Below are positions 9,422 through 20,539 of a DNA stretch of 35,209 bases, one piece after another (within the stretch, counting starts at the first letter, position 1; each line of letters opens with the position of its first letter). The DNA lies in contig RIBL01000025.1 of NCBI GenBank assembly GCA_003762875.1, positions 1 to 35,209 of the forward strand, given 5' to 3'. The notes beneath the pieces were generated by a model. That model was not told the DNA's origin. It worked only from the letters and a program-made list of their open reading frames with translations, and made no database searches. A program made the translations under genes and the position numbers. The stretch comes from Muribaculaceae bacterium Isolate-110 (HZI) (GTDB lineage: Bacteria > Bacteroidota > Bacteroidia > Bacteroidales > Muribaculaceae).

Positions 9422-10888
9422 TCAATACCAGTCATGTTTCTCGTTACGGTTAAGTGCGGCAATCGCGGTCATCTCATCCTCAGTCAACTCGAAGTCAAAT
9501 ATTGAGATGTTTTCTTTCATGTGGTCGGGGTTGCTTGAGCCGGGAATGACTACAACACCACGCTGCAAGTCCCAGCGCAAAATGACCTGTGCGACAGACT
9601 TGCCGTGCCGCATGGCGATTTTGGTAAGCACCGAGTCGCTCAGCAATTCCTTCTGATGCCCTCTGCCCCCTAACGGATACCAAGCCTCGACCGCTATTCC
9701 GAGATTCTGGATATGGGGAACGACATCGGTGTCCTGATAATAGGGGTGAACCTCGTTCTGCACAAGCACAGGCTTTATATCTACCTGACGGATGAAATCG
9801 TCGATTTCCTTGATATAGTAGCATGACACGCCTATGGAGCGGATTTTTCCCTCCTTGACATATCGTTCCATCGCCTTGTAGGCTTTCACGTCGTCAGTGC
9901 CGGGATGATGCAGAAGCATCAGGTCAACGTAGCCGAGGTCGAGTTTGCGCAGGCACTCATCTACGGCGGCTTCCGGGTCGCCATACTGGTTGGGGTATAT
10001 TTTCGTAGCCACGAAGATTTCTTCCCGCGGCACACCAGATTCACGCACTCCGCGACCCACCTCGACCTCGTTGCCATACATGTGCGCGGTGTCAATCTTT
10101 CGGAAACCGAGAGAGATAGCCGACTTTACGGAGTTCACGCACACGTCGCCTGTAAGGCTGTATGTGCCGAGACCCACCACCGGCATATCATATCCGCTGC
10201 TGAGGCGGATTGTGGGTGCCTGACCGTTTTTGCCCTCTGAAAGAGGAAATTTCGAGTAATCCATATCTGTGTCAAATTTTATATCAAGTCCTGAAATCCA
10301 CTTTTCAAGCTCTGTTTTGGATATGTTTTCCGCAAAGCGTCGTCCTGGTATCCAGACAGCATCCGGAGCGAGAGAATGCAGATTGCGGTCGCTGCTTCCA
10401 AGACCGCTGGAGTGTGAAGTGCAGAACGGTACTATCGTTTTACCTTTGAAATCTCCGTTCTCAAGGAATGTGCTGATTATACGCGGTGCTTCTCCCCACC
10501 ATATCGGATAACCGATGAAAACCACATCGTATCGGTCAAGACCGTCAGGCATCCCTTTGATTGCCGGACGAGCCTTAGGATTGTTCTGCTCCCTGTTGGC
10601 ACGACAGTCGCTGTTATAGTCGAGGTCGGCGGCGGTATAAGGCACTTCCGCTTCTATTCTGAATGTGGATGCCCCGGTTATATCCGCTATACCCTCGGCA
10701 ATACCTTCTGTGGTGCCCGTACATGAGAAATATGCCATCAACACGCTGCCGTTGGTACCGGTTTCAAGGCCGGGAATCGGATCATGGGCCGGATTTTCAT
10801 TTACGGGGTCATCATCCGTTGTGGCGCATGATGCACACGCTGTCAGAGAAAACATGGACATTATCATTGAAAGAATTTTGATTTTCAT
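9422..10888 (-). CDS. Lipoprotein fusion: flavodoxin domain + aldo/keto reductase domain
   Basis: A 488-residue two-domain protein. The N-terminus is a signal with a lipobox-like end (SLTACASC), so it is probably a membrane-anchored lipoprotein. Residues about 48-200 form a flavodoxin: the FMN loop AYFSCTGTTEGIAEG, GYPIWWGEAPR and FCTSHSSGLGSS. Residues about 228-488 form an aldo/keto reductase: GLGTYSL, the catalytic residues in KIDTAHMYGNE (Asp, Tyr), VATKIYP (Lys) and LLHHPG (His), and an SNPDHMKENI-type cofactor loop near the end. An FMN electron carrier fused to an NADPH-type reductase outside the cytoplasm is unusual, because NADPH is not expected there. The gene lies 4 bp after the acetyltransferase gene, in the AraC-linked island. 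Confidence 0.88.
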   Translation of the reverse strand: MKIKILSMIMSMFSLTACASCATTDDDPVNENPAHDPIPGLETGTNGSVLMAYFSCTGTTEGIAEGIADITGASTFRIEAEVPYTAADLDYNSDCRANREQNNPKARPAIKGMPDGLDRYDVVFIGYPIWWGEAPRIISTFLENGDFKGKTIVPFCTSHSSGLGSSDRNLHSLAPDAVWIPGRRFAENISKTELEKWISGLDIKFDTDMDYSKFPLSEGKNGQAPTIRLSSGYDMPVVGLGTYSLTGDVCVNSVKSAISLGFRKIDTAHMYGNEVEVGRGVRESGVPREEIFVATKIYPNQYGDPEAAVDECLRKLDLGYVDLMLLHHPGTDDVKAYKAMERYVKEGKIRSIGVSCYYIKEIDDFIRQVDIKPVLVQNEVHPYYQDTDVVPHIQNLGIAVEAWYPLGGRGHQKELLSDSVLTKIAMRHGKSVAQVILRWDLQRGVVVIPGSSNPDHMKENISIFDFELTEDEMTAIAALNRNEKHDWY

Positions 10889-13669: not shown

Positions 13670-14279
13670 TATCCCTATGACAGAGTTCTCGACGGGTCTC
13701 TCCGGGCGACGTGGCTTGCGTGTGGTTTCAACAACATCAGAGGCGGTCTTGTATATTGAGAGATATTTGTCATATATTTTCGGCTCATTAATTACAAATT
13801 ACTTGAACCGCTCTATCTCGGCGTAATCAATGTCGTTGAGAATAAGCGTGAACTTTGTCCGAGTCGTTTTCTGTCCATACAGTTCAAAGCGACGCAACAG
13901 TCGGGCAAGCACCCTGTAGTGGCCTGACAATGGTGCGCCATCAAAATGCTTGTCGAGAAATTCATTAAACACATCGAAAAACGACATCTTTTGCGGCGCG
14001 GCTTCAAACGGTTCCGGGGGGTGATGACGCAATATTACATCCTCGAAGGATTCTTTGGAGAGTGATTTTTGAGGCGTGTTGACGCAGATCGAAATCAATA
14101 GGCTCGCTCTCCAAAGAGCCGAGATTGTCATTTATTATTTGCAACTTTGCCAATGTATTTCGGTCTGCGCGTGGCATTATGATTTTACCGTCACGAAAGC
14201 GAGTATCCTCAACAAAATTACAAAATCCACGGCGTATATGCAAAACAATCTCAATCCCGGCCACTCGGTCGCTCATCCG
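13658..14279 (-). pseudogene. Decayed tyrosine recombinase/integrase (N-terminal part only)
   Basis: Three stretches read in order as the arm-binding and core-binding (SAM-like) domains of a Bacteroidetes integrase: RDGKIIMPRADRNTLAKLQI and NLGSLESE (14279 to about 14070); SLSKESFEDVI, FFDVFNEFLDKHF and RVLARLLRRFELYGQKTT (to 13799); and EPKIYDKYLSIYKTASD with RKPRRPERPVENS (to 13658). The first join needs removal of one A from an A5 run at 14066-14070 (minus strand) and then reads ASKSLSKES. The second is an in-frame TAA at 13799-13801. The catalytic R...HxxR...Y domain is absent. The gene is clearly inactive and marks an old element next to the AraC island. Confidence 0.7.
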
Positions 14280-14344
14280 GCAGCATCGGCAAAAATGGTA
14301 TTTATTTATGTAAAATGTGTAGATGAAAATTTGCGGGAATTTAT

Positions 14345-14352
14345 TAACTTTG
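14345..14352 (+). promoter_or_regulatory. -7 box (TAACTTTG) for the Fe-S/aldo-keto reductase operon
   Basis: TAACTTTG lies 68 bp upstream of the ATG of the polyferredoxin gene. No good -33 element is seen at the usual distance. It is the only clear TAnnTTTG match before a five-gene operon whose genes are 5-16 bp apart or overlap. Confidence 0.55.
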
Positions 14353-14419
14353 CACAATCAAGACCAATCCATACATCCGCCGCCTCCGGGTAGATGACCG
14401 CAACATCAGTGATTTTGTT

Positions 14420-15901
14420 ATGAAAATATTGAAAGGGATACGCCGGGCACTCGCCATAGCGAGTATTATTACGGTAACATTACTGTTTCTTGACTTTACA
14501 GGCTCCGCCCATGCTTGGCTTGGATGGATGGCAAAAATACAATTTCTGCCCGCGCTGCTCGCTCTGAATGTCGGAATTATCATAGCACTTGTGGCCTTGA
14601 CACTGATTTTCGGACGTATATACTGCTCTGTGATATGCCCGCTCGGCATAATGCAGGACGGTTTTGCATGGCTCGGCCTCAAAGCCCGCCGCAACCGTTA
14701 CAGCTACTCGCCTGCCAAGACCGCTTTGCGCTACGTCATGCTTGCCGTGATGGTCGCCGCAATTATCGGAGGGGCCGGAGTCATCGTGGCGTTGCTCGCG
14801 CCCTATAGTGCATACGGACGCATAGTCCAAAGCATATTGTCGCCCATCTGGCTGTGGGCCAACAATCTGCTTGCACAATGGGCCGAAAGCCATGACAGCT
14901 ATGCTTTCTACACCATAGACATTTGGCTCAAAGGCGGCGTCACTCTCATGGTAGCCGCTCTGACTCTCGTGATTCTCGCCGCGCTCGCATGGCGCGGAGG
15001 CCGCACCTACTGCAACACTGTCTGCCCCGTAGGCACACTGCTTGGATTTCTCTCGGCTCATTCTCTCCTGCGTCCGGTCATAGACACATCGAAATGCAAC
15101 GGATGCGGACTGTGTGCTCGCAACTGCAAAAGCGCGTGCATTGACAGCAAAAATCACGCCATTGACTACTCTCGTTGCGTCACATGCATGGATTGCATCG
15201 GCAAGTGTCACAAGGGAGCGATATCCTACACTCTCGCCCGCACTGCAACCAAAACGTCAGGAGACGCGACCGACAATTCACGCCGACAATTTCTGACCGC
15301 GACAGCCGCAATCTCGGCCTCGATGGCTCTGCGCGCTCAGGAGAAAACCGTTGACGGAGGCCTGGCCGCAATCACCGACAAGAAAATCCCTGAGCGTAAA
15401 ACCCGCATAGTCCCTCCCGGAGCTTTGGGCATAAGCAATCTGTCGTCACACTGCACCGCATGTCAGCTATGCGTTTCAGCCTGCCCCAACGATGTGTTGC
15501 GTCCGTCGACCGACCTCGCCACACTCATGCAGCCCGAGTCGTCATATGAGCGCGGATATTGCCGTCCGGAATGCACTCGATGCTCTGAAGTGTGTCCTAC
15601 CGGAGCCATACGTCCAATATCGATGGCCGACAAATCATCGATCCAGATAGGACATGCCGTCTGGGTCAAAGCCAACTGCGTGCCGCTGACCGACGGAGTG
15701 GAATGTGGCAACTGTGCCCGTCACTGCCCGGCGGGAGCCATATCCATGGTAGTCTCCGACAGCGGCAATCCCTCATCGCCCAAAATCCCTGTGGTCAACA
15801 CCGAACGGTGCATCGGCTGCGGTGAGTGCGAAAACCTGTGCCCGGCACGTCCGTTCAGCGCGATATATGTCGAAGGGCATGAGAAACACCGTGAAATCTG
15901 A
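14420..15901 (+). CDS. NapH-NapG-like fused polyferredoxin with an internal twin-arginine motif
   Basis: A 493-residue membrane Fe-S protein. Residues 1-215 resemble NapH: about four to five membrane segments and two CxxxCP motifs (CSVICPLG, CNTVCPVG). Two 4Fe-4S motifs follow (CNGCGLCARNC and CVTCMDCIGKC, about 223-265). Then comes SRRQFLTATAAISASMALRAQ (about 289-309), which looks like a Tat signal, followed by a NapG-like part with four more Cys clusters (CTACQLCVSACP, CTRCSEVCP, CGNCARHCP, CIGCGECENLCP). In nitrate-reductase systems NapH and NapG are separate and pass electrons from quinol to the periplasm. No nap genes are present here, so the acceptor is unknown. Sec-inserted helices followed by a Tat-exported domain would be a dual-route protein. 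Confidence 0.87.
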   Translation: MKILKGIRRALAIASIITVTLLFLDFTGSAHAWLGWMAKIQFLPALLALNVGIIIALVALTLIFGRIYCSVICPLGIMQDGFAWLGLKARRNRYSYSPAKTALRYVMLAVMVAAIIGGAGVIVALLAPYSAYGRIVQSILSPIWLWANNLLAQWAESHDSYAFYTIDIWLKGGVTLMVAALTLVILAALAWRGGRTYCNTVCPVGTLLGFLSAHSLLRPVIDTSKCNGCGLCARNCKSACIDSKNHAIDYSRCVTCMDCIGKCHKGAISYTLARTATKTSGDATDNSRRQFLTATAAISASMALRAQEKTVDGGLAAITDKKIPERKTRIVPPGALGISNLSSHCTACQLCVSACPNDVLRPSTDLATLMQPESSYERGYCRPECTRCSEVCPTGAIRPISMADKSSIQIGHAVWVKANCVPLTDGVECGNCARHCPAGAISMVVSDSGNPSSPKIPVVNTERCIGCGECENLCPARPFSAIYVEGHEKHREI

Positions 15902-15917
15902 CAAGTCATCTCTTCCA

Positions 15918-17339
15918 ATGAATAACAATAACAGCAATAACAATAATAGTCCACGTTCGCGTCGCGACTTCCTGAAACGTATCGGTCTCGGAGCCACCGT
16001 GACAGGCCTCGCCCTGGCCGGATGTGAATCGGCCGGAAGGAAAGCTGCCGGAGGGCTGTCGTCCTCTGTTGCGGTCCCCGACGGCAAGATGACCTACCGC
16101 ACAAACCCAAAGACCGGCGAAAAGGTGTCGATACTCGGATATGGCTGCATGCGCTGGCCGACAAAACCCGACGGAAACGGCGGTGACGACGTGATTGACC
16201 AGGAGACGGTCAACCGCCTCGTCGACACAGCCATAGCCCACGGCGTGAATTATTTCGACACATCGCCCGCCTACTGCAAAGGGCTCTCCGAACGTGTCAC
16301 AGGCATAGCACTGAGCCGCTATCCGAGAGACACGTATTATATCGCGACCAAACTTTCCAACTTCTCTCCTTCCACATGGTCACGCGAAGCGTCGCTGGCA
16401 ATGTATCACAATTCGCTCAAGGAACTTCAGACCGATTACATCGACTACATGCTCCTCCACGGCATAGGCATGGGTGACGACGCCATGAAGACGTTTGAGG
16501 ACCGTTACATCAACAACGGAGTGCTCGACTACCTCATGGCCGAACGCGAAGCAGGACGGATACGCAACCTCGGATTCTCCTACCACGGCGACATCGCAGT
16601 GTTTGACCGCCTGCTGGCCGAACACGACAGATACAAATGGGATTTCGTGCAGATTCAGCTCAACTATGTTGACTGGAAGCATGCCAAGGAAGTAAACCCG
16701 CGCAACACCGATGCCGAATATCTCTACAACGAGCTTGACCGTCGCGGCATCCCGGTAGTCATAATGGAGCCCCTGCTTGGCGGACGCCTGTCCAAAGTGC
16801 CCGACCATATCATAACACGGCTCAAACAGCGTGAGCCCGAGCGGAGCGTGGCGTCATGGGCTTTCCGTTTTGCTGGCTCACCCGAAAGAGTGCTGACAGT
16901 GCTCAGCGGCATGACCTATATGGAACATCTCGAGGACAATCTTCTCACATATTGTCCTCTCGACCCGCTGTCGGAGGAAGAGACACAGTTTCTCTACGAC
17001 ACGGCCGATCTGATGATGACCTATCCAACCATCCCGTGCAACGACTGCAAATACTGTATGCCTTGCCCCTATGGCATCGACATACCATCCATATTGCTGC
17101 ACTACAACAAGTGTATCAACGAAGACAACGTGCCGGCGTCGACTCGCAGTGCCAACTATGCCTCGGCACGTCGCGCTTTCCTTGTGGGCTATGACCGCTC
17201 CGTCCCGCGGCTGCGTCAGGCCAACCACTGCATAGGATGCAACCAGTGCTCGCCCCACTGCCCGCAAAACATTGACATACCCTCCGAGCTGCAACGCATC
17301 GACCGGTTTGTCGAAATGCTAAAGACCAATCCGTCATGA
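15918..17339 (+). CDS. Tat-exported lipoprotein aldo/keto reductase with two C-terminal 4Fe-4S motifs
   Basis: A 473-residue protein from the chosen ATG (15918). It begins with an Asn-rich stretch, then SRRDFLKRIGLGATVTGLALAGC, a twin-arginine signal ending in a lipobox. The frame is open further upstream and ATG 15879 is possible. The aldo/keto reductase domain shows GYGCMRWP, Asp and Tyr in NYFDTSPAYCKG, Lys in IATKLSN, and His in YMLLHGIG. The tail has CNDCKYCMPCPYGIDIP and CIGCNQCSPHCPQNIDIP, two ferredoxin-like clusters as in other Fe-S aldo/keto reductases. Location is probably the periplasmic face of the inner membrane or the outer membrane. With the preceding gene it suggests electron delivery to, or from, an exported substrate. 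Confidence 0.88.
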   Translation: MNNNNSNNNNSPRSRRDFLKRIGLGATVTGLALAGCESAGRKAAGGLSSSVAVPDGKMTYRTNPKTGEKVSILGYGCMRWPTKPDGNGGDDVIDQETVNRLVDTAIAHGVNYFDTSPAYCKGLSERVTGIALSRYPRDTYYIATKLSNFSPSTWSREASLAMYHNSLKELQTDYIDYMLLHGIGMGDDAMKTFEDRYINNGVLDYLMAEREAGRIRNLGFSYHGDIAVFDRLLAEHDRYKWDFVQIQLNYVDWKHAKEVNPRNTDAEYLYNELDRRGIPVVIMEPLLGGRLSKVPDHIITRLKQREPERSVASWAFRFAGSPERVLTVLSGMTYMEHLEDNLLTYCPLDPLSEEETQFLYDTADLMMTYPTIPCNDCKYCMPCPYGIDIPSILLHYNKCINEDNVPASTRSANYASARRAFLVGYDRSVPRLRQANHCIGCNQCSPHCPQNIDIPSELQRIDRFVEMLKTNPS

Positions 17340-17764
17340 CACCACGCCGACAGGAGACAGTCGACATGCTCCACACACTGGGATGTTCTTGCATCATCGA
17401 CAACGGGACCGACAGGACAATCTGTCATGAACGCGGAGTCAGAGACCTGCTACGCATCCTCACCGCGACCCCTACCCTGCTTGCCGGCAGCTTCATAGCC
17501 GACAAGGTTGTCGGCAAGGGGGCAGCCGCCCTCATGACGGCAGGAAGCGTTGCCGCTGTCTATGCCGACACCATAAGCCGGCCGGCACTCGCAATGCTCT
17601 CCTCTTATGGCATCACGGTCACATACCGCACATGCGTTCCCAATATCATCAATCGTTCCGGCACAGACATTTGCCCGGTCGAGCGGCTGTGTGCCGATGC
17701 GTCCACTCCGGCTGAATGCCTGCCGCTCATCCAATCGTTTGTCAATTCACTTACCCAACAATGA
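17336..17764 (+). CDS. DUF1893 protein
   Basis: A 142-residue cytoplasmic protein. It starts in a 4-bp ATGA overlap with the reductase gene. The pattern is that of DUF1893: LGCSCIIDNG near the start, GVRDLLRIL, then SFIADKVVGKGAAALM (about 52-67), SRPALAMLSSYGI and a late Cys-Pro (GTDICPVERLC). The family has a cytidine-deaminase-like fold as I recall, but its biochemical function is not established. The conserved lysine-glycine loop and the cysteines could bind a cofactor or nucleotide; that is speculation. Its tight position between a redox protein and a transporter component suggests a role in supplying or modifying a cofactor. Confidence 0.8.
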   Translation: MTPRRQETVDMLHTLGCSCIIDNGTDRTICHERGVRDLLRILTATPTLLAGSFIADKVVGKGAAALMTAGSVAAVYADTISRPALAMLSSYGITVTYRTCVPNIINRSGTDICPVERLCADASTPAECLPLIQSFVNSLTQQ

Positions 17765-18255
17765 CCCTCACACTCACCACCCTACGTTTCAAAGAGACCG
17801 AGACATATCTCATGGCGGCACTATTCATCGCAGGAAACATAGTGTTGCCCCAACTGTTTCACCTCATCCCTCAGGGCGGCATCATCTGGCTGCCAATCTA
17901 TTTCTTCACCCTCATAGGAGCCTACATGTATGGATGGCGCGTAGGGCTGCTCACAGCATTGGCGTCACCCGTCATCAACTCACTTCTTTTCGGCATGCCG
18001 CCCGTGGCAGCACTTCCGGCCATCATACTCAAATCCACGCTTCTCGCAGTCATAGCCGGACTCACAGCCGCTCGTTTCCGCCACACATCCCTGCTGTTGC
18101 TCATAGCCGTAGTGCTTGGCTATCAGACCATCGGCACCATTGGCGAATGGGTGATGAAAGGCGACTTCATGCTTGCCTGTCAGGACTTCCGCATGGGCAT
18201 CCCCGGCATGCTTCTCCAGATAGCCGGAGGTTATCTCATATTACCGAAAAAATAG
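17761..18255 (+). CDS. ECF transporter S component (substrate-binding membrane protein)
   Basis: A 164-residue membrane protein with about five to six hydrophobic segments. The ATG at 17761 overlaps the DUF1893 stop (ATGA); an upstream in-frame ATG at 17716 overlaps too far to be likely. The layout GNIVLPQLFHLIPQGGIIWLPIYFFTLIGAYMYGWRVGLLTALASPVINSLLFGMPP fits S components, the vitamin- or cofactor-recognising part of energy-coupling-factor transporters. No EcfA or EcfT gene is in the window, so it would share a module encoded elsewhere or work alone. The ligand may be a cofactor needed by the neighbouring redox proteins; this is inference. Confidence 0.82.
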   Translation: MTLTLTTLRFKETETYLMAALFIAGNIVLPQLFHLIPQGGIIWLPIYFFTLIGAYMYGWRVGLLTALASPVINSLLFGMPPVAALPAIILKSTLLAVIAGLTAARFRHTSLLLLIAVVLGYQTIGTIGEWVMKGDFMLACQDFRMGIPGMLLQIAGGYLILPKK

Positions 18256-18260
18256 CAGCC

Positions 18261-19085
18261 ATGACACTACGCACCGTAACATTCTCACCTACCGGCACTA
18301 CAGCAAAGATAGTCAGTGCCATTGCCTCGGGCATCATGGACACAATAAAATGTGAATCCATAATCTGCGACACCACCTGTCGACCTGCCGAGACGTTCGT
18401 GGCCGGCCCTGACGATATCACCGTGATAGCCGCTCCAGTCTACGGAGGCAAAATGGCTCCCATAGCCAAAACCCGCCTGACCGCAATCAAAGGCCTAAAC
18501 TCTCCGTGTGTGCTCGTAGCCGTCTATGGCAACCGCGCTTTTGAAAACGCACTCAACGACATGGCCGACTTTGCCACATCACTCGGTTTCATGCCCGTAG
18601 CAGCCGGAGCATTCATCGGCGAACACTCCTACTCATCACCGGCCACCCCGATAGCCGTCGGACGCCCCGATGCCGACGACATAGAGACCGCCCGTGAATT
18701 TGGCCGCAACATCGGCCGGCACCTCTTGGCCGGGACGCTTGAACGGATCGACACGACCATGCTCCACGACCGCCCGTCACCTGAAGAGTCTCTGCTCAAC
18801 TTCCGCAACTTCGTGACCGGCTATCAAAAGCAACAGGCCGTCACGCCCCGCAAATTTCTACCCGAGGTCAACACTGCCTTATGCTCACAGTGTGGCCAAT
18901 GTATCGACATTTGCCCTGTCGGAGCTATCGGCGACGACTGTCTGAGCGTCGACGGCTCGAAGTGCATCAAATGTTGCGCCTGCGTGAAGAGATGTCCGGC
19001 CAATGCCCGCTCACTCCACTCTCCGTTCGCCCCGATACTCTCCCAAAACTTCGACCTGCCAAAAGCTCCGGTCCTCAGTCTGTAA
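18261..19085 (+). CDS. EFR1-type flavodoxin/ferredoxin protein
   Basis: A 274-residue cytoplasmic electron carrier. The start at ATG 18261 is 5 bp after the S-component stop; the frame is open far upstream, but that part is a shadow of other genes. Residues 1-150 form a flavodoxin-like domain with the FMN loop TFSPTGTTAKIV and PVYGGKMAP. The C-terminus has two 4Fe-4S motifs, CSQCGQCIDICPVGAI and CIKCCACVKRCPANA. This is the EFR1 (EFR1 family ferrodoxin) architecture of anaerobes. As the last gene of the operon it is a plausible cytoplasmic partner linking low-potential electrons to the membrane polyferredoxin. Confidence 0.9.
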   Translation: MTLRTVTFSPTGTTAKIVSAIASGIMDTIKCESIICDTTCRPAETFVAGPDDITVIAAPVYGGKMAPIAKTRLTAIKGLNSPCVLVAVYGNRAFENALNDMADFATSLGFMPVAAGAFIGEHSYSSPATPIAVGRPDADDIETAREFGRNIGRHLLAGTLERIDTTMLHDRPSPEESLLNFRNFVTGYQKQQAVTPRKFLPEVNTALCSQCGQCIDICPVGAIGDDCLSVDGSKCIKCCACVKRCPANARSLHSPFAPILSQNFDLPKAPVLSL

Positions 19086-19140
19086 AAACCGCCACACCCC
19101 TCCAAGAGTCACAGCCCCTGTGAAGGAAAAACAGGGGAAA

Positions 19141-19497
19141 CTATTCGTTGTACCGATATAATTCTGCCGTTATGTTGTAACAAGTGCTACGTATATCAGG
19201 CTCCTTAACCCGAACTAAATAGACAAGTTGAGCACCAACTTTTCTACTTTCTTCTTCGATGACCTGCATACATGCCTCATAAGTGCATTTACCGCTCGGT
19301 GTTAAGCCATTTTCACCAACTACAATAGAGCCAATCCGATATATGTTCTTAGGTAACGTTTGATTTGTCTGAACAATAGGGATCTGTCCCTCTGTTGGTG
19401 GATAATACTGTTTGACTGTTATTTGTTTTTTCAATGTACAAGAAGTAATTGCGAATGTCATCAATACTGATGATAGTATGACAAGGATTTTTTTCAT
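19141..19497 (-). CDS. Small lipoprotein, function unknown
   Basis: A 118-residue protein from ATG 19495-19497; the frame opens further upstream, but this start gives a proper lipoprotein signal (MKKILVILSSVLMTFAITSC). The mature part (KKQITVKQYYPPTEGQIPI and then GSIVVGENGLTPSGKCTYEACMQVIEEESRKVGAQLVYLV) alternates strands and a helix around a two-Cys motif. I do not recognise a family. The DNA is AT-rich compared with the operon before it, which suggests recent acquisition. It lies tail-to-tail with EFR1 and before a tyrosine recombinase on the same strand. Confidence 0.65.
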   Translation of the reverse strand: MKKILVILSSVLMTFAITSCTLKKQITVKQYYPPTEGQIPIVQTNQTLPKNIYRIGSIVVGENGLTPSGKCTYEACMQVIEEESRKVGAQLVYLVRVKEPDIRSTCYNITAELYRYNE

Positions 19498-19602
19498 GAT
19501 GTATTTTTTATAGGCAAATTTAGCAAATAATTCGTAATCACACAAATGCACGTCAGCGACTTCGGATGTGGAAGCCGCTGACGATAGCCGCTCTTACCGT
19601 CT

Positions 19603-20418
19603 TCACCAGTTGACTATCTTATCGACAATCGTCTGCTGCTCTGTGGCCGTGCGTCGCAGATATATACGGGTAGTCTCGATACTCTCATGGCCCATGAGAT
19701 CGGCAAGAAGCGCGAGATCATTGTATCGTTCGAGAAAATTTTTGGCAAAACGGTGGCGGAAAGAATGCGGATACACGACAGCCGTATTTATGCCATACCT
19801 CTCTGCAAAAAGTTTCAGTTGCTGGGCAATTCCTCGGGCCGTTATGCGTTCGCCAAAACGGTTGAGAAATATATAACCCGACTCGATGCGTCTCTTTCCG
19901 AGCCATTGCATCGCCTCGGTGCGCAGTCTCTTCGGTATGTAGAGACGCCTCATCTTGCCCCCCTTGGAATAGATGTCAAGATAGCCCTGCTGCACATGCT
20001 CGGCCTTGATCTGCAACAGTTCGCTCACACGGGCTCCGGTGGCGGTGAGAAACCACACTACGAAATACCACGACGTGTGGCCTCCGTTCTTCAGACTCGT
20101 CTTCAGAAATCTGTAATCGGCATTGCTGATGACATTCTCAAGAAAATTTTTCTGCTGCACCTTTACGAAACTCATTTTAAGCCGGTCTTTCTTCATATAC
20201 TCCAGATATTTATTGATAGCCTGCAACCGTAGATTGACAGTCTGCGGCTTATGATGTTCCATTAGAGACCCCTTGTAAGCCAAAAGGTTTTCACGTGTCA
20301 CCTCCGGATATTTTTCAAGAAAATCGGTCACGGTCCACACATACGAACGTATGGTGTTTGCGGCCAGCTCCTGGCGCATAAGAAATGTTTTGTACCTGTT
20401 TATCATATATGTATACAT
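19603..20418 (-). CDS. Tyrosine recombinase (phage-integrase family)
   Basis: A 271-residue site-specific recombinase from ATG 20416-20418 (MYTYMINRYKTFLMRQELA); ATG 20406 is an alternative. Residues 1-90 form a SAM-like core-binding domain (LAANTIRSYVWTVTDFLEKYP). The catalytic residues are visible: Arg in GARVSELLQI, Lys in YSKGGKMRRLYIP, His-x-x-Arg in PHSFRHRFAKNFLE, His in LMGHESIETT and the nucleophile Tyr in RIYLRR. There is no arm-binding domain, so it belongs with short XerC/D- or invertase-type enzymes. No excisable element or obvious pair of inverted sites is seen around it. It could act in trans on invertible promoters, as related short recombinases of Bacteroides do. Confidence 0.88.
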   Translation of the reverse strand: MYTYMINRYKTFLMRQELAANTIRSYVWTVTDFLEKYPEVTRENLLAYKGSLMEHHKPQTVNLRLQAINKYLEYMKKDRLKMSFVKVQQKNFLENVISNADYRFLKTSLKNGGHTSWYFVVWFLTATGARVSELLQIKAEHVQQGYLDIYSKGGKMRRLYIPKRLRTEAMQWLGKRRIESGYIFLNRFGERITARGIAQQLKLFAERYGINTAVVYPHSFRHRFAKNFLERYNDLALLADLMGHESIETTRIYLRRTATEQQTIVDKIVNW

Positions 20419-20539
20419 TAGAGAAAAGATAAAAGTAATGATTTTTTCACATCCCGCCCCCAAAGCATTATCGTATTTACCGATTGCAGCTATCGAAAAA
20501 AACATCAATACTCATCAATCCTTTCGCGGCTCCCGATTG

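Follow-up and report, generated by a model that had tools for sequence, protein, structure and literature searches.

A conserved polyferredoxin-aldo/keto reductase gene cluster of Bacteroidales as a possible quinone-linked periplasmic oxidoreductase system

Which function could join a membrane polyferredoxin, an Fe-S aldo/keto reductase (AKR) with an export-type start, a DUF1893 protein, a membrane protein resembling the S components of energy-coupling factor (ECF) transporters and a flavodoxin-ferredoxin in one bacterial operon? The question is raised by positions 14420-19085 of a 35,209-nt stretch from Muribaculaceae bacterium Isolate-110 (HZI) (GCA_003762875.1, contig RIBL01000025.1, positions 1-35,209, forward strand), which at its full length is called the window here. 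The original prediction made from this DNA had proposed a membrane-to-periplasm redox system comprising all five gene products. Comparison of many related loci gave a partly different answer: the genes for the polyferredoxin, the AKR, the DUF1893 protein and the S-like protein are a conserved Bacteroidales cluster, and we tentatively read this cluster, at slightly less than an even chance, as a modular quinone-linked periplasmic oxidoreductase system in which the AKR acts on a receptor-imported compound.

The DUF1893 family (PF08973) was found in 30 of 295 genomes of the order, at 31 places including the window, and the neighbourhoods of the other 30 places formed the order sample. Further loci, called named loci, came from the best 80 of 581 confirmed relatives among the matches listed; three of them were order-sample loci and were dropped, which left 77. 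Profiles for the locus maps were built from the order sample, open reading frames (ORFs) were identified from length and profile alone, loci truncated at contig ends were included, and the DUF1893 scan used one conserved peptide and under-samples degenerate members. The order polyferredoxin-AKR-DUF1893 was present in 17/30 order-sample and 49/77 named loci, and the order extended by the S gene in 10/30 and 40/77, respectively. Since four of the five genes thereby recur in order in 50 of 107 other loci, the operon set is more than a chance assembly, and the gene order is kept well beyond the strain. The fifth gene, an EFR1-like one, was detected in none of the 110 other loci (three duplicates among these) by scans with a single-sequence profile at E ≤ 1e-5, with limits of 90 bits in one scan and 40 bits within 9 kb in the other. 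As the four-gene order recurs and the EFR1-like gene does not, the latter looks like a local addition to a real unit of four. Over all loci, window and duplicates included, a polyferredoxin gene stands upstream of 89 of the 94 long AKR genes. Commensals with the cluster include Bacteroides faecichinchillae (L135) and Butyricimonas synergistica (L132).

Relatives interleave further parts with these genes, namely a TonB-dependent receptor (7/30 and 14/77 loci; best PDB match BtuB) and an exported DUF362 protein (4/30 and 15/77), each assigned by Pfam on one member, while TatA-TatC genes follow the S gene in 7/30 and 14/77 loci (TatA recognized by sequence, TatC at such places also by PF00902). 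The proposed redox system thus holds for its parts and their conserved order, but not for EFR1, and it lacked the receptor, the exported DUF362 protein, an exported flavodoxin and TatAC because these are not visible in the window. DUF1893 is fused to the receptor in five loci and to the AKR in three. In the former it lies in frame ahead of the receptor (L032 7218-9668, L033 7279-9558, L059 8556-10844, L118 924-3212, L132 9995-12286), with an internal signal-peptide-like stretch between the parts as judged by eye, and in this arrangement the precursor of an outer-membrane receptor would carry a cytoplasmic domain. In the latter, an AKR with a start of the twin-arginine translocation (Tat) type carries a C-terminal DUF1893 (L043 7175-9106, L044 7134-8978, L055 7624-9468), which would bring DUF1893 into the periplasm, opposite to the receptor fusions. 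Between the DUF1893 and S genes, loci L065, L072 and L073 encode a superoxide dismutase (SOD) whose start is signal-like, along with a lipoprotein-like protein (206-208 residues); in L065, Pfam assigned the former to Fe/Mn-SOD and the latter to no family. Bacteroidales-type genes were also seen in metagenome-assembled genomes titled Staphylococcus and Clostridiales (L076 with four genes of the set, L104 with DUF1893 and S), and these taxon titles are probably wrong.

The features of the operon are as follows.
14345..14352, + strand: -7-like box TAACTTTG before the operon (sequence match)
14420..15901, + strand: P1, fused NapH-NapG-type polyferredoxin, 493 aa (Pfam/NCBIfam profiles, motifs)
15281..15340, + strand: putative internal twin-arginine segment of P1, residues 288-307, RRQFLTATAAISASMALRAQ (PF10518 match under the cut-off, alignment, pattern)
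15879..17339, + strand: P2, Fe-S AKR, 486 aa, with Tat lipoprotein-type start (Pfam, alignment; signal by inspection)
17336..17764, + strand: P3, DUF1893/TM1506 protein with a predicted deaminase-type fold (Pfam, predicted structure)
17761..18255, + strand: P4, ECF-S-like membrane protein (PF12822, predicted structure)
18261..19085, + strand: P5, EFR1-like flavodoxin-ferredoxin, not kept in the cluster of relatives (NCBIfam, locus scans)

P1 begins with a NapH-like half that lies in the membrane and continues with a NapG-like one. Pfam matched Fer4 in five stretches and Fer4_5 in two, and the NCBIfam scores for NapG (77.2 bits, cut-off 269) and NapH (76.4 bits, cut-off 234) leave it outside both equivalog families. 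Four N-terminal hydrophobic segments peak near residues 10-28, 46-64, 108-126 and 172-190; the hydrophobicity of the segment that follows RR288-289 does not reach the cut-off passed by these four. Two CX3CP motifs (Cys 69/73 and 198/202), two four-Cys sets presumed to face the cytoplasm (226-236, 253-263) and four presumed to face the periplasm (345 to 474) were recognized, and their cysteines are invariant in 14/14 aligned rows. The TAT_signal profile PF10518 matched residues 286-304 with 16.9 bits, under its cut-off of 22.7; in the 14 aligned rows R289 is invariant and R288 is conserved to at least 90%, and a pattern search over 95 full-length relatives detected RR or KR ahead of a DGG motif in 81, most of the 14 misses showing RR, RK or KR by eye. 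With its NapH-NapG fusion and an internal RR before the fifth transmembrane segment (TM5), P1 has the build of a dual Sec-Tat polyferredoxin, the TAT_signal match itself being below the cut-off. According to Tooke 2017 (PMC5449189), one such fusion, Q1NSB0 from the delta proteobacterium MLMS-1, experimentally needs both Sec and Tat; by analogy, the C-terminal half of P1 would be Tat-exported. Nitrate-type respiration was rejected on the NapH and NapG scores, which are far under the cut-offs. Among the neighbouring genes read, no nitrate, nitrite or trimethylamine N-oxide reductase was seen, although no search was aimed at these reductases.

P2 joins an Aldo_ket_red barrel (PF00248, 4.6e-33) to a C-terminal domain of the two-cluster ferredoxin type with two [4Fe-4S] motifs (Fer4_17, 25.8 bits, cut-off 22.2). 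The tetrad D127, Y132, K158 and H194 is invariant in 13/13 rows and aligns with the equivalent residues of L-galactose dehydrogenases, which are the closest solved relatives (best 1.3e-14); barrel and tetrad together place P2 among the AKRs. The RRDFLKRIGLGATVTGLALAGC stretch at its start is by inspection a Tat lipoprotein-type signal, and among long AKRs pattern searches found an RRxF-type start in 81/93 and a lipobox-like site in 57/93. Signal-less Fe-S AKRs of 382-386 residues occur as a second AKR in the clusters of L075, L084, L090 and L119 (Pfam on L075). Flavoproteins also accompany the cluster: in five loci the polyferredoxin gene is directly preceded by a flavodoxin gene, and two loci have one next to DUF1893. 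The starts of these flavodoxins look signal-like by eye (Pfam was run on L077 and L159 only). In L190, an FMN_red-family protein with an RR start is encoded between polyferredoxin and AKR. These genes make a flavin gate between polyferredoxin and AKR plausible. In the window itself, Flavodoxin_4 (3.6e-48) and Aldo_ket_red (2e-46) are joined in a lipoprotein-like protein, which is encoded at 9422-10888 on the minus strand, 3.5 kb upstream of the operon, and is a natural flavodoxin-AKR link.

P3 belongs to the DUF1893/TM1506 family by profile (PF08973, 1e-44, 151.8 bits, cut-off 27) and by fold, its model (predicted local distance difference test, pLDDT, 97.1) matching TM1506 (1vk9, E 1.8e-11) and a Borrelia DUF1893 structure (9e9a), followed at E above 0.003 by nucleobase deaminases and RibG. 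Across 56 aligned rows, residues D56, K57, G60, K61, C113, P114 and E116 do not vary; in a more divergent set of 26 rows this holds only for G60, A64, A84 and C113. DUF1893 may bind a base or ring. P4 counts as an ECF S component by family (PF12822, 9.1e-8, 32.7 bits, cut-off 30.7) and by its fold, nearest to RibU, ThiT and FolT. Three of the four best PDB folds for its model (pLDDT 89.1) were TmRibU forms (best template modelling score, TM, 0.63, E 4.2e-3), with ThiT and FolT next and no PDB match at E ≤ 0.001; the model points to an S fold, with a flavin ligand as a weak lead. That S component and DUF1893 supply a cofactor, as originally proposed, is conceivable, RibU being the closest, if weak, match. 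Because no EcfT (PF02361) match was found in its own genome, a normal ECF transporter is unlikely there, and a complete one was rejected; the predicted S component stands as a family member without a detected EcfT partner. P5 matched the EFR1 profile NF038196 at 1.3e-11 with 45 bits against a cut-off of 75 and is therefore only EFR1-like.

Parts that are missing from the window were found elsewhere in its own genome. A second locus (G000:C14:354772-357630) holds a receptor homologue and a DUF362 gene 15 bp apart, and TatC is encoded at G000:C2:42980. Among the loci examined, the receptor is nearest to that of L127 (61% identical), where six genes are contiguous in the order polyferredoxin-AKR-DUF1893-receptor-S-DUF362; the DUF362 protein shares 59% identity with its L127 counterpart and up to 73% with copies elsewhere. 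Over the 295 genomes, full-length AKRs were counted in 49, DUF1893 in 30, the S protein in 34, DUF362 in 28, the receptor in 69 and TatC in 246; at 1e-60, AKR hits covered 56 genomes, of which seven with hits of 214-258 bits were left out. AKR and DUF1893 share 27 genomes (27/30 DUF1893 genomes; p 1.2e-21). The S protein occurs together with DUF1893 in 24 genomes and with the AKR in 23, and the AKR accompanies DUF362 in 19 (of 28 DUF362 genomes) and the receptor in 29 (of 49 AKR genomes). Fisher p values ranged from 5e-22 to 2e-9 for five pairs, and the loosest of ten pairs tested was S with DUF362 (5e-5), all treating genomes as independent and ignoring relatedness. All 49 AKR genomes are within the TatC list as compared by eye (chance 5.5e-5). 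Tat presence was nevertheless rejected as a diagnostic, TatC occurring in 246/295 genomes; the position of TatA-TatC in the cluster tells more.

The periplasmic oxidoreductase reading is built on gene content, gene order, fusions, co-occurrence, motifs and predicted folds, all of which were observed. From these we infer export, electron direction, partner contacts, substrate and all transport steps. P1 would be inserted into the inner membrane by Sec, with its C-terminal four-cluster half following by Tat, and would carry electrons from menaquinol to the periplasm. There, the Tat-exported AKR could accept them via its two [4Fe-4S] clusters, an exported flavodoxin, where present, being the probable gate between one- and two-electron steps. 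The BtuB-like receptor would bring a small compound, possibly a nickel compound, over the outer membrane, and both the AKR and the exported DUF362 protein would act on it. Passage of the compound, of its product or of a flavin across the inner membrane would fall to the S-like protein, with DUF1893 handling the compound on the cytoplasmic side. For the strain itself, receptor and DUF362 protein would act from the second locus and TatC from elsewhere in the genome.

Several points weigh against this scheme. NAD(P)H-dependent catalysis is unusual for an exported protein, and periplasmic NADP binding by the AKR is putative. Unless a flavin takes part, a bare Fe-S chain would hardly hand a hydride on to AKR-bound NADP, and the profile maps of most loci show no flavodoxin match beside the cluster genes. 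The two fusion types place DUF1893 on opposite sides of the membrane, and DUF1893 was found without the scanned partners on the same strand within 9 kb in 5/30 order-sample and 5/80 named loci, some of them cut by contig ends. At the cut-offs used, 22 of the 49 AKR genomes have no DUF1893, 20 no receptor match and 26 no S protein. The uptake parts are therefore optional. Because 22 genomes have an AKR but no DUF1893, polyferredoxin and AKR form the core, to which the other parts are added as modules. Twenty further AKR-centred loci (16 from DUF1893-less genomes, four second loci of DUF1893 genomes) were inspected; the polyferredoxin adjoins the AKR in 19 of them (not in L173), and L162, L169, L170 and L175 have a receptor nearby.

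Electrons could also flow in reverse, with the periplasmic AKR oxidising an aldose or alcohol and the polyferredoxin feeding menaquinone for fumarate reductase. Electron flow through quinone-linked Fe-S chains is reversible in principle, the catalytic tetrad is intact, and the kinship of P2 with L-galactose dehydrogenases agrees with such a role; the match is, however, to a broad AKR branch with no single specificity, and the recurrent receptor is BtuB-like (sugar-uptake genes were not searched for), so we consider reverse flow rather unlikely. A comparably small chance is given to the idea that S protein and DUF1893 furnish flavin to exported flavodoxins linking polyferredoxin and AKR, as RibU and FmnA serve extracellular electron transfer in Listeria. 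The predominance of TmRibU among the folds nearest to P4, the flavodoxin genes in seven loci and the FMN_red protein of L190 argue for it, but none of these folds reaches E ≤ 0.001, ThiT and FolT come next, and in other lineages the S protein is partnered with a phosphoribosyltransferase or methyltransferase.

Defence against carbonyl or oxidative damage, in which the AKR would be a periplasmic repair or detoxification enzyme, MsrPQ-like in logic, with the uptake genes as accidental neighbours, accords with the SOD genes in three clusters (Pfam on L065 only) and with the AKR genomes in which DUF1893 was not found. Receptor, DUF362 and S protein nevertheless co-occur with the AKR far above chance and interleave with it, and DUF1893 is fused to AKR or receptor in eight loci, which makes this explanation quite improbable. 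Most improbable is the strict form of the original prediction, in which cytoplasmic EFR1 donates electrons to the polyferredoxin: the EFR1-like gene does close the operon 5 bp after the S gene, and P1 has two presumed cytoplasmic-side clusters, yet the absence of this gene from all 110 other loci speaks against EFR1 as a conserved member or electron source.

A narrower form of the periplasmic oxidoreductase reading concerns the imported compound. Cobalamin uptake was rejected as the default, as no riboswitch was found at gathering score in the window or in ten loci despite the BtuB-like receptor. Outside the clusters, NikR stands directly upstream of stand-alone receptors in 15 of the 25 loci read, a subset of such loci in the 69 receptor genomes; three Pfam-confirmed members of the 15 supplied the NikR profile, L204 was identified by NCBIfam (153 bits, equivalog cut-off 105) and the other 11 by profile. 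A tree of 58 receptors unites 18 of 20 DUF1893-linked receptors in a 28-member clade (support 99/92), near the base of which one NikR-linked receptor lies. The receptor of the strain belongs, with L127, L182 and L214, to a 24-member group (support 91/90, drawn open) that includes 12 of the 15 NikR-linked ones. Because NikR was not found in the strain's own genome, nickel is a lead hinted at by these neighbours, not a result. Seven loci (L196, L198, L200, L204, L206, L212, L213) have an inosine-uridine nucleoside hydrolase-like protein directly or one gene after the receptor (Pfam on a piece from L200 only, 7.9e-11), and L198, L204 and L212 a membrane protein with a GPDH motif, NicO/UreH-like by eye, two 110-residue pieces of which had no Pfam match.

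The S protein without DUF1893 has a phosphoribosyltransferase neighbour in eight loci (L176, L177, L179, L180, L181, L185, L186, L189), while in L178 and L182 the neighbour is a methyltransferase. A DUF362 protein with a Tat signal replaces the AKR beside the polyferredoxin in seven loci (L176, L177, L179, L185, L186, L188, L189); Pfam was run on L176, L182 and L189. Those seven polyferredoxin-DUF362 loci also hold the S protein and, except L188, the phosphoribosyltransferase. The DUF362 profile had no PDB match at E ≤ 1, the Tat-form DUF362 had no LarA match, and LarC (PF01969) was not found in the strain's own genome nor in 27 of the 28 DUF362 genomes, the own one included (80 genomes searched for LarC; LarB and LarE were not searched). 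DUF362 as a nickel-pincer enzyme made in the usual way was rejected on these grounds, although a pincer cofactor might be obtained by salvage. Reductive scavenging of a nickel-linked or nucleotide-like cofactor could combine these threads: import by a receptor of the NikR-associated family, periplasmic reduction by a quinol-driven polyferredoxin and the exported AKR (in other lineages by Tat-exported DUF362 of the LarA clan) and uptake by a lone S-type protein, whose partner for handling the base would be DUF1893 or a phosphoribosyltransferase. We hold this specific proposal to be improbable; if it is true, its coupling of uptake to respiratory periplasmic reduction would be a new mode of cofactor acquisition.

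As for the operon itself, all five ORFs were confirmed at their positions, head to tail with intergenic distances of -23, -4, -4 and +5 bp; the 16 bp of the original prediction is the gap from the polyferredoxin stop to an alternative AKR start at 15918. The box TAACTTTG that had been named as the one box ahead of the genes is present, and we take it to be a Bacteroidales -7-like box. It is weak as sole evidence because TANNTTTG is commoner in the window than expected (27 observed, 15.6 expected), and by eye no TTTG was seen at what we presume to be the usual -33 spacing. Positions 14000-19500 had no near match in a plasmid collection that may leave out near relatives, and a plasmid origin was rejected. 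Directly downstream of the operon, an ORF at 19603-20508 on the minus strand resembles a tyrosine recombinase by eye.

If the periplasmic oxidoreductase reading is true, DUF1893, exported DUF362 and solitary S components would all gain a function at once. It would also explain TatA-TatC within the cluster in part of the Bacteroidales and imply a NapGH-type respiratory branch of gut bacteria that ends in an AKR and not in a molybdoenzyme. Given the second locus and the receptor, uptake and growth assays could address the substrate directly. In the literature searched, which covered few subscription journals, no description of the cluster was found, and one paper there names TM1506, none DUF1893.

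Known systems share single parts with this cluster. Cytoplasmic Fe-S AKRs, presumably COG1453-like, have the same barrel and C-terminal two-cluster ferredoxin, whereas P2 adds a Tat lipoprotein-type start and an adjoining polyferredoxin. FrpB4 of Helicobacter pylori, described in PMC13367063 as a nickel TonB-dependent receptor, is tied to NikR like the stand-alone receptors here (15/25 loci), but the strain's own genome has no NikR match and 18/20 DUF1893-linked receptors lie in another clade. DUF362 and lactate racemase LarA are placed in the same Pfam clan, CL0471, in PMC11770544, and H173, K183 and H199 of the exported DUF362 are spaced as H174, K184 and H200 of LarA1, although the local alignment over the LarA lysine region is weak (E 0.57). 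With the dual Sec-Tat polyferredoxin Q1NSB0, P1 shares the NapH-NapG fusion, the RR just ahead of TM5 and the weakly hydrophobic TM5; as far as the main text of PMC5449189 goes, that family is named for Chloroflexi, Nitrospirae and Euryarchaeota, with Bacteroidetes only in another family, and neither "aldo" nor "TonB" occurs in it. With the NapGH quinol dehydrogenase of periplasmic nitrate reduction, going by the layout given in the same text, P1 has in common a NapH-like half in the membrane that bears two CX3CP motifs as well as two [4Fe-4S] sets, and a NapG-like half that bears four sets. Unlike NapGH, P1 is a single fused chain, is partnered with an AKR and scores far under the NapG and NapH cut-offs. 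The Bacteroidales cluster is most likely a variant, apparently a new one, of NapGH-linked periplasmic systems.

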